The translations under genes were made by a program, and so were the position numbers. The notes beneath the pieces were generated by a model. The model searched no databases, was not told the DNA's origin, and saw only the letters and a list, made by a program, of their open reading frames with translations. From Candidatus Peribacteria bacterium (lineage in GTDB: Bacteria > Patescibacteriota > Gracilibacteria > Peribacterales > Peribacteraceae): 64,000 nt of DNA. Positions 55,919 to 58,776 of the stretch are shown here, piece by piece (the first letter of the stretch is position 1; every line of letters begins with the position of its first letter). The DNA lies in NCBI GenBank assembly GCA_023038255.1, contig CP082927.1:82436-146435 (forward strand), in the 5' to 3' direction.

Positions 55919-56788
55919 ATGCCTCAAATCGATATCCAGATCGACCGTCCCTACATGACACTCGCTCTCGTCGGTGTGATTGTTGCGGGTACCATCTATG
56001 GAAACAGTGGAACACAGGCCGAATCGCCTATGGGTGGAGACATGGACGCGGAGCAGATGAGTAACCCGGTCGTCATTGCCACGACTGCCGAAGCAGATAT
56101 GGCAAAGGTTCGTGATGAGCAGTTGGTTCTTTCCAAGCGCGAAGAAATTCTCCGTGAGCAGCTCGCAGCACTCGATGATGCGATGGCAAACGGTGCGTTT
56201 GTGGATATTGATGTCTACATTGAAACACGTGATGAACTGGTGAATCTTCTCAAAGACAAAGTTGCAGCTGAACAGAAACTCGTCGAGGCTCTGCATGAAT
56301 TCTGGGCGGCGGACGGGTACGCATTCGATGCATCACGCTATCAGTCTGATGATGGTTCTGCGGTTCGCTTCCTGTGGCCGGTCGAACCGGAACTCGGCAT
56401 TTCCGCACGCTTTGAGGACAGCGGATATGAGAAGCGCTTTGGTATGCCGCACCATGCACTCGATATTCCCACCGCACAGGGCACTGTGATTACTGCAGCT
56501 GCAGACGGTATTGTCACCAAAGTCTCAGACCAGGGCATGGGCTTCAGCTCTATTGTCATCAGCCACAAAAACGGCATGGCAACCATGTACGGACATGTGA
56601 GCGGCTTCCTGGTTGCAGAAGGCGACACCGTCGAAGCGGGTGATCCGATTGCTCTCAGCGGAGGCACGCCGGGAACAAAAGGAGCTGGACTCCTGACAAC
56701 CGGTGCGCATCTCCACGTCGCATTTTACAAAGACGGTGCTGCAGTTGATCCACTCGACTGGTTGCCGACAGACGGCGTCGATCTCTGA
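55919..56788 (+). CDS. M23-family (LytM-type) peptidase, membrane-anchored
   Basis: 289 residues. An N-terminal hydrophobic segment (YMTLALVGVIVAGTIYG) anchors or exports the protein. A charged helical region of about 90 residues, probably coiled coil (SKREEILREQLAALDDAM), precedes the peptidase domain from about residue 150. Zinc and catalytic motifs are visible: HHALDIPTAQGT (HxxxD) and the closing HLHVAFYKDG, with GNGM-type turns between. It would cut peptide bridges in peptidoglycan or activate amidases. TACAAT (55907-55912) ends 6 nt before the ATG. Its 3' end overlaps the convergent voltage-sensor gene by 64 bases. Confidence 0.92.
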   Translation: MPQIDIQIDRPYMTLALVGVIVAGTIYGNSGTQAESPMGGDMDAEQMSNPVVIATTAEADMAKVRDEQLVLSKREEILREQLAALDDAMANGAFVDIDVYIETRDELVNLLKDKVAAEQKLVEALHEFWAADGYAFDASRYQSDDGSAVRFLWPVEPELGISARFEDSGYEKRFGMPHHALDIPTAQGTVITAAADGIVTKVSDQGMGFSSIVISHKNGMATMYGHVSGFLVAEGDTVEAGDPIALSGGTPGTKGAGLLTTGAHLHVAFYKDGAAVDPLDWLPTDGVDL

Positions 56789-57693
56789 CCGTTCTGCATT
56801 TCAAAGGACTTGTGCATGATGATGTGCGCAGCTTTCTCGTGCTTGCGGACCATTGTGATGTGAATCTGTCCCGGTGTGTCAGCGGCGGTGTCGATATCCA
56901 GTGTCCCGTACCGGAAGAGAAAGCTGAACATGCTGCTGAACGACGGCTTCACGTTTGTAATGGAAAAATAATTCACCTGATTGATGCTCCGCCCGAACAA
57001 ATGCTGGTTATGGAAAATGAGTCGGAAGTTCGTGAGATAAATCACGTCGTAGTTAAAATCCAGCCAGCCTTTCAGGAGGAAGAGAAGGGCAAAAAGGACG
57101 AGCGTGAAGCCAATCCCGAGCCCGATGGGATTACCGTCTGCAAGAAGGAAAATAGCAAGACTGAAGCTGATGGCAACTGCCGGCGGAATACAGTGCAGGA
57201 ATAAAAACAATGGATGCTTGCTGACGACAAACTCCACAGATTCCCCTTCCACCAGTCCTACATTTTTCTCTGTCACCTCGTCGCGGTCAGCAGCTGCACC
57301 GGCCTGCATTTCCCCCAGTTTGAAGAACCGGATGAAGCGCAGAATGCGAATGTATTCGGTCTGGAATATTCCGGTGTAGAACGGTGCAATCGAGAGCGCA
57401 TCCACAATGCCGTAGAACGAAAAAAGATAGCGGATACGATTGGGTGCTGCATAAATGCGCAGAAAATATTCCACAGTGAACACGGCAACAATAAATGCTT
57501 CCATGCCATCAATGACCGTGTTGAATGTTGCGTACCCCGGAAGAAATTTAATCGGCAGAATCGCGACGGATACCAGAATCAATACGACCATCACAAAATG
57601 TAGAATCTGTCCGCTGCGGCCTCTGCCATCGTGCAGTACTGCCCAGAGATCTCTGCGGTTTTTTGCCCGGCGCTCGGAACGAGGCATGTCCAT
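56725..57693 (-). CDS. Voltage-sensor-like S1-S4 domain fused to a bacterial PH (bPH2, YdbS-like) domain
   Basis: 322 residues. S1 is at about 31-50. S2 at about 60-81 has Glu75 and Arg79 (FTVEYFLRIY). S3 at about 88-105 has Asp98 (GIVDALSIAPFY). S4 at about 113-126 has Arg116, Arg119, Arg122 and Lys125 at three-residue intervals (RILRFIRFFK). This is the voltage-sensor pattern of ion channels. No S5-pore-S6 with a selectivity filter follows. Instead there are two more membrane segments (about 164-207) and a PH-like domain (YDVIYLTNFRLIFHNQHLFG, FSFLFRYGTLDID). The ATG at 57693 is 7 nt behind TATACT. Function unknown; a voltage-responsive membrane sensor is an inference. Confidence 0.75.
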   Translation of the reverse strand: MDMPRSERRAKNRRDLWAVLHDGRGRSGQILHFVMVVLILVSVAILPIKFLPGYATFNTVIDGMEAFIVAVFTVEYFLRIYAAPNRIRYLFSFYGIVDALSIAPFYTGIFQTEYIRILRFIRFFKLGEMQAGAAADRDEVTEKNVGLVEGESVEFVVSKHPLFLFLHCIPPAVAISFSLAIFLLADGNPIGLGIGFTLVLFALLFLLKGWLDFNYDVIYLTNFRLIFHNQHLFGRSINQVNYFSITNVKPSFSSMFSFLFRYGTLDIDTAADTPGQIHITMVRKHEKAAHIIMHKSFEMQNGQRSTPSVGNQSSGSTAAPSL

Positions 57694-57744: not shown

Positions 57745-58776
57745 TTAAATGGTTTCCATCATCCCTTTTGCATAGGTATCACTCATACCGGCTACATAAT
57801 CCTTCACTGCCTCAACAAGGCCGGAACCCGTGCGTTCCTGCAAATCCGTGATTTTCTGTGTGGGATGTTCATAGAGCTTGCGGCACAGTGCATCCACCAC
57901 TGTCTGTCCGATAGTTGTCTGCGCAACAACCTGCGGATGTGTGTACATATGGTCCCACAGAAACTGACGAAGCTCTGTAATGCCGTGACGCATGGCGGAA
58001 GAAAATGCGATCGGGTGGGTATCCAAAGGGTTCAGTGTGGAGTGCTCCAGGAGGTCATGCACCATCATGTGCTGGAGGGCTCCGCGAATATACGTGCCGC
58101 GTTCGCGTGTCCGTTCATACGCTTCTGCTGCCAGGGGCACGCTAAGCAATTCCGTGCGAGAAAAGAGTCCGGCGTTCAATCCGTCATCACAGTCGTGCGC
58201 GTGGTAGGCAATTTCATCGGCGATATTCACAAGTTTTGCCTCGAGTGAATGCGCAATAGTCATGGAGTGCTTCTGGAGTCCTTCGAGCACTTCACGATTC
58301 AGGTTCAGCCCTGTGTACTGCGACGAATGCTTCTCGATGAGCGTAACAATTCTGTAGCTCTGTTCATTGTGTTCAAACCGCGCTCCGTGCTCTTTCATCC
58401 ATGCATCAATCGCCTCTTCCCCTGCATGTCCGAACGGCGGATGCCCGATATCATGTGCGAGTGCGATGCATTCTGCGAGGTCTTCATTCAGCTGCAGCAT
58501 GCGTGCCAGATCTCTGCTGATCTGCGCGACGACCATGGTATGCGTGAGGCGCGTGCGGACATGATCTCCCATTTCACCAACAGCAAACACCTGTGTCTTT
58601 GCCTGGAGTCTCAGGAAGGCGTAACTGTGAATAATGCGGTCACGGTCACGCTGGAACGGGAAGCGGGTGTCGTCTTCCTGCTCCGGAAACACGCGTCCGA
58701 GTCTGCCCTCGTGCCGCACAGCGTGCGGGGAAAGAAGTTTGTTTGCCTCGTTGATGCGCTCTGTAAGGGAAAACAT
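57745..58776 (-). CDS. dgt: dGTPase-like HD-domain phosphohydrolase
   Basis: 343 residues of the deoxyguanosinetriphosphate triphosphohydrolase-like family, which cuts dNTPs to nucleoside and triphosphate. The HD metal site is seen as RTRLTHTMVVAQISRDLARM followed by ALAHDIGHPPFGHAGEEAID. SLEAKLVNIADEIAYHAHDCDDGL supplies the later His/Asp ligands. The N-terminus contains DTRFPFQRDRDRIIHSYAFLRLQAKTQV split over the usual Arg-rich segment. The length suits the short type-2 branch. TATCGT ends 6 nt before the ATG at 58776. A candidate small RNA is encoded just upstream on the same strand. Confidence 0.92.
   Translation of the reverse strand: MFSLTERINEANKLLSPHAVRHEGRLGRVFPEQEDDTRFPFQRDRDRIIHSYAFLRLQAKTQVFAVGEMGDHVRTRLTHTMVVAQISRDLARMLQLNEDLAECIALAHDIGHPPFGHAGEEAIDAWMKEHGARFEHNEQSYRIVTLIEKHSSQYTGLNLNREVLEGLQKHSMTIAHSLEAKLVNIADEIAYHAHDCDDGLNAGLFSRTELLSVPLAAEAYERTRERGTYIRGALQHMMVHDLLEHSTLNPLDTHPIAFSSAMRHGITELRQFLWDHMYTHPQVVAQTTIGQTVVDALCRKLYEHPTQKITDLQERTGSGLVEAVKDYVAGMSDTYAKGMMETI

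Follow-up and report, generated by a model that had tools for sequence, protein, structure and literature searches.

A K+-channel-type voltage-sensor domain fused to a YdbS-like PH module instead of a pore in a protein family of Patescibacteria

The stretch of DNA analyzed here (64,000 nucleotides, called the window) encodes a protein of 322 amino acids in which a K+-channel-type S1-S4 domain is fused to a complete YdbS-like module. We consider it probable, with some reserve, that this is a pore-less voltage-sensor protein that reports membrane potential. The order of its domains (voltage-sensor domain [VSD], two transmembrane helices [2TM], PH domain), an intact charge-transfer centre, a ladder of basic residues in S4, the lack of a pore and the conservation of this design across a whole class are features of the sequences and of the structure model, while voltage sensing itself is suggested by the conserved residues. 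The wider proposition is that this is the first prokaryotic family whose voltage sensor drives something other than a pore, the membrane potential switching a YdbS-like PHb module (through assembly, partner binding or transport) in an independent bacterial counterpart of the voltage-sensing phosphatases; we hold this to be narrowly favored.

The gene lies on the minus strand (56725..57693), with its ATG at 57693 and its stop at 56725. The preliminary description had placed an open reading frame there without naming a strand, and the reading of the frame together with the 29 full-length family members shows that it is real. A gene for an HD/HD_assoc phosphohydrolase (dGTPase-like; 57745..58776, minus strand) lies 51 nt upstream on the same strand. 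On the other side, a convergent M23 peptidase gene (55919..56788, plus strand) overlaps the VSD-bPH gene by 64 bp, so that the two 3' ends share positions 56725 to 56788. The genome holding the window is complete, in a single contig of 1.24 Mb, and carries one stand-alone PHb paralogue elsewhere (C1:767243). Its sole other Ion_trans match (L156; G000:C1:976204-976458) is a two-helix K+ channel whose filter reads SIGYGD and whose C-terminal part is cytosolic.

The search of genomes for the same domain order, proposed in the preliminary description as a check, covered relatives and the whole class (353 genomes) and returned 29 distinct full-length proteins, the window protein included. Partial pieces of the fusion were also present at contig ends in three genomes (G204, G319, and G184). 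Four families of this class contain the fusions, namely f1 (to which the window belongs), f6, f15, and f2, and the most divergent fusion shares 21% identity with the window protein. All 29 belong to one class of Patescibacteria (Peribacteria/Peregrinibacteria/Gracilibacteria). Among 380 genomes sampled across the phylum, full-length fusions were found only within this class, and stand-alone PHb modules were common. Outside the phylum, genomes were sampled from the phyla of a Pontibacter (296), a Chloroflexi MAG (301), and a Legionella (299), and none gave a match at E ≤ 1e−36; nearly all full-length members of the class pass this threshold, but it could miss distant fusions that carry another PH module. 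A single-sequence scan of genome contigs with the window protein gave no match; among the best 80 matches of an alignment-based scan, there were 15 named full-length loci, with Peribacteria, Peregrinibacteria, and Gracilibacteria as the named organisms.

The count of 29 covers reading frames in which TGA is taken as a stop and not read under code 25. Several in-frame TGA codons occur in the VSD matches of G056, G077, G090, G139, G154, and others (f10 and f14), which is consistent with TGA recoding in those lineages, and further members of the family may be present in these genomes. In a tree of 110 VSDs, built by a quick method on a short alignment, a branch (SH-aLRT of 85) separates all 29 fusions from the pore-bearing channels, suggesting that a single fusion is likely. 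The simplest reading is that a Kv-type sensor was joined once to a YdbS-like module and that the gene was afterwards inherited mostly vertically. A viral origin was discarded, since the matches in viral contigs cover only the VSD region and those included in the tree group with the channels. Two further proteins were observed in these searches. A 138-aa ORF from f8 of the same class (L021:1429-1842, genome G041) is a bare S1-S4 domain (Ion_trans, E = 1e−10, profile positions 3-110) that stops just after a K/R-rich S4, with no pore downstream; it may be either a broken channel or another type of bacterial sensor without a pore. A Kv-like six-helix protein of the same phylum (L148:1189-2034, genome G473) has LLGGVSLY in its filter region in place of TxGYG.

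The neighboring genes agree within families and differ between them. At f1 loci the HD-domain phosphohydrolase is immediately upstream (3 to 6 nt away in several loci other than the window), and wherever the flanks of the other Peribacteria-type loci are intact, it is again the neighbor. At eleven f6 loci (L068 to L073, L075, L076, L045, L050, and L057) the fusion gene is adjoined by a divergent dnaK, and a common stress-type promoter region is possible. In f15, a separate bPH_2 gene directly follows the fusion gene at two loci (L061:864-1475 and L062:2431-3045) and is itself followed by a P-loop ATPase/kinase-like gene. Because conservation stops at the family level, the neighborhood was set aside as a clue to function. 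A role in antiphage defense was likewise dropped, PADLOC having returned no match.

The N-terminal half of the protein is a voltage-sensor domain of the Kv type. Pfam Ion_trans matches residues 29-126 (E = 2e−12) over profile positions 2-105 of 241 only, which corresponds to S1-S4 without the pore, and among proteins of solved structure those closest in sequence are Kv4 and Kv2 channels, over their S1-S4 parts. An AlphaFold2 model made with 29 orthologue sequences reached a mean pLDDT of 90.7 and a pTM of 0.84, and replaced an earlier, mediocre model from 7 sequences (pLDDT of 75). In this predicted fold, S1-S4 forms the four-helix sensor bundle that had been anticipated from the sequence, and it superposes on Kv sensors. 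VIA-align matched residues about 9-161 to Kv1.3/Kv4.2 with Z scores of 12.2 to 12.7 (1.5 to 2.4 Å over 117 to 122 residues), values that helical bundles may reach by chance, although here profile, motif, and fold concur. The helices, delimited on the model and all encoded on the minus strand, are S1 (residues 25-48, 57550..57621), S2 (residues 54-82, 57448..57534), S3 (residues 93-107, 57373..57417), and S4 with its cytosolic extension (residues 113-136, 57286..57357).

The charged residues named in the preliminary description (E75, R79, D98, R116, R119, R122, and K125) are all at the positions it gave. S2 carries an outer acid, E65, and the motif F72-x-x-E75-x-x-x-R79, S3 carries D98 and P104, and S4 carries the four basic residues. 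F72, E75, D98, and P104 are identical in the 29 fusions, in which residue 65 is always E or D and residue 79 always R or K. The spacing of F72, E75, and D98 is that of F233, E236, and D259 in the charge-transfer centre of Kv1.2. The S2 motif corresponds to Fxx[ED]xxx[RK], the published search motif for voltage sensors (PMC4878010). In S4, the longest ladder of basic residues at three-residue spacing counts 4 in the window protein and 2 to 6 across the family, with at least 3 in 28 of the 29 fusions; shuffled S4 segments reach at least 4 in ~0.7% of cases. These counts are safer than residue identities at positions 116 to 125, since the S4 alignment has a gap between families.

Judged by its sequence, the sensor is intact but has fewer charges than those of channels, most clearly in f6. 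The median ladder is 4 in the fusions versus 6 in pore-bearing Kv relatives, most f6 members have no first arginine (R116), and the equivalent of R119, kept in 28/29 fusions, is gone in one protein (L051), suggesting that some members may have low sensitivity. The same shortened ladder and missing arginines speak for the main rival, a degenerate scaffold, in which an S1-S4 domain derived from a K+ channel only anchors or oligomerizes the PHb module and keeps its charges for folding, with no useful sensing. S1-S4 domains without voltage sensing exist, for example in TRP channels. Nevertheless, a retained scaffold seems unlikely to us: the charge-transfer centre is conserved without exception across the 29 divergent sequences, just as in the set of working channels, where its F, E, and D are present in 78/78, and a plain anchor has no need of F72, E75, and D98 together with stacked arginines.

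No pore follows the sensor, as the preliminary description had maintained. After S4, the modeled chain runs through a linker, a short strand, TM5, four residues, TM6, and a PH fold with a C-terminal helix. The four residues that join TM5 (residues 161-184, 57142..57213) to TM6 (residues 189-215, 57049..57129; both on the minus strand) leave no room for a pore helix and a filter. Of the 81 VSD relatives that have no PH module, 78 carry a loosely defined filter motif, [TS]x[GA][YFLW]G, after the VSD (2 of the remaining 3 being short or truncated). By motif search and model, none of the 29 fusions has a channel filter in the pore position, and the only two motif matches among them (SLGLG and STGLG) lie outside any TM5-TM6 loop. 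A hidden pore is thus ruled out, and the protein has no S5-P-S6 pore domain with a selectivity filter such as is found in voltage-gated K+, Na+, and Ca2+ channels.

The C-terminal half, previously described as two membrane segments and a bPH2-type domain, amounts to a whole YdbS-like protein, that is, two transmembrane helices and one PHb2 domain (the layout of YdbS [PMC8657885]), with the PH identity established by fold. Model and module alignment place the linker at residues 137-159 (57217..57285, minus strand), with a short strand at 153-157 and the start of the bPH module at E151. A conserved H160 stands just before TM5, and TM6 ends in the motif WLD-x-x-YD. The PH fold (residues 217-305, 56779..57045, minus strand) consists of strands between 217 and 283 and a C-terminal helix at 285-305, and was matched by VIA-align to the bacterial PH domains 3hsa (Z = 11.8, 112 residues, 3.1 Å) and 3dcx (Z = 11.7, 106 residues, 2.5 Å). 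Pfam gave only bPH_3 for the window protein, at E = 0.0098 and under the curated cutoff; at E ≤ 0.01, bPH_2 was matched in 16/29 members and bPH_3 in 15/29. Comparison with 26 stand-alone PHb modules of the same class and phylum showed that the signature residues of bPH (E151, H160, D212, D216, T221, G263, and I292) are retained in the fusions. Ten positions that vary in the stand-alone modules are fixed or nearly so in the fusions, and residues fixed or nearly so only there include G234, N247, P250, Y219, Q228, and W210. Such a pattern would be expected of a sensor and a module that function together.

Under the preferred reading, a protein that reports membrane potential, a change of potential would move S4 through the constriction formed by F72, E75, and D98. 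The C-terminus of S4 and the linker (137-159) would then exert a pull on TM5 and the first strand of the PHb module, altering the way in which PHb modules assemble among themselves or with a protein partner. A complex in the cytosol or the membrane might in this way be informed of the membrane potential without passage of ions. Judging from how charges are distributed over the loops, the N-terminus, the PH domain, and the end of S4 all face the cytosol, which such a coupling would require. By analogy, protein assembly is the favored output and lipid binding a less likely one, since the solved bacterial PH domains (PF08000, another branch) have been argued to have no lipid site, to oligomerize, and probably to bind proteins (Xu et al. 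2010, PMC2817789).

The module could also serve transport, with oligomers of the 2TM-PHb part making a translocation path gated by the VSD. Membrane PHb proteins of the DUF304 type have been proposed as transporters or pores (Xu et al. 2010, PMC2817789), and deletion of ddE or ddF (proteins DdE and DdF) blocks the export of EntDD14, a leaderless bacteriocin (PMC8657885). The second bPH_2 gene directly after the fusion gene in two f15 genomes, which recalls the ydbS-ydbT pair, points the same way. However, the gene neighborhoods contain no substrate gene, bacteriocin, or ABC transporter beside the fusion gene, and TM5 and TM6 have almost no polar residues, which makes a voltage-gated transporter quite improbable.

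Conduction by the sensor itself, as a proton channel like Hv1 or as a gating-pore leak, would agree with the layout of Hv1, a four-helix sensor without a pore. Such conduction is very improbable given the residues involved. The S1 core has no acid in the window protein or in 27/29 fusions overall, the other two having an Asp at the start of the core; residue 42 (S42 in the window protein), near the place of the S1 aspartate of Hv1, is Ser or Thr in all 29, as in Kv channels, and S2, S3, and S4 are Kv-like. No fusion (0/29) has a Trp in S4, and thus RxWRxxR is absent. Membership among Hv1-like channels was rejected on the same grounds. Finally, although the design was first found in one genome, an assembly artifact or accidental gene fusion is refuted, and given virtually no weight, by 29 distinct full-length members in four families and independent assemblies, with one continuous frame and gene neighborhoods conserved within families.

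According to a 2023 review that drew on database searches (PMC10377628), no prokaryotic voltage-sensing domain was then known without an accompanying K+, Na+, or Ca2+ pore. The VSD-bPH family is an exception to this statement, with which the earlier suggestion that a bacterial sensor joined to a PH-like domain is a new combination is consistent. Pore-less sensors are known in Hv1, the voltage-sensing phosphatases, TMEM266, and SLC9C1, all of them eukaryotic (PMC13095418); the preliminary description had rightly listed the first two, and its list has to be completed with the others. We found no paper that describes a VSD-bPH fusion or a bacterial sensor lacking a pore, an absence that carries little weight because most subscription journals were outside the search. 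What appears to be new is a voltage sensor, recognized as such by its residues, wired in bacteria to a module that is not a channel. The fusion partner is a domain without a channel role and is conserved across a class, and the 29 relatives with the same design suggest that bacteria may use voltage sensors for more than opening channels. If so, the coupling of a sensor to a nonchannel effector, known in animals and other eukaryotes, arose in bacteria too, and some of the smallest free genomes, those of Patescibacteria, would belong to cells reading their own membrane potential. These bacteria are largely devoid of respiratory chains (PMC4736985). The family also gives PHb/YdbS proteins a testable input.

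The fusions combine features of several known systems. They share with the VSDs of Kv channels (Kv4, Kv2, and Kv1; Ion_trans), including bacterial Kv channels of Bacteroidota and others, the S1-S4 fold (1.5 to 2.4 Å), F-x-x-E in S2, a D in S3 26 residues later, and the R/K ladder of S4, but have no S5-pore-S6, carry a 2TM-PHb module, and have a shorter ladder. The whole layout of YdbS/DUF304 proteins (bPH_2; YdbS of B. subtilis and DdE of E. faecalis) is found in residues about 145-305 of the window protein, with GE at 150-151, the H before TM5, two TM helices, and the PH fold with its signature residues, to which an N-terminal voltage-sensor domain is added. Hv1, TMEM266, and SLC9C1 are likewise voltage sensors with no ion pore behind them, in eukaryotic families, but the window protein lacks the S1 Asp and the RxWRxxR of Hv1 and has no exchanger domain. 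There is an analogy in the way of working with the voltage-sensing phosphatases (Ci-VSP and TPTE), in which a pore-less sensor is likewise followed after S4 by a cytosolic effector. Phosphatase identity was rejected, since the motif HCx5R is absent in 29/29 fusions and the C-terminal fold is that of a PH domain. In place of the PTEN-like domain, the fusions carry the PH module, with two extra TM helices between sensor and effector.
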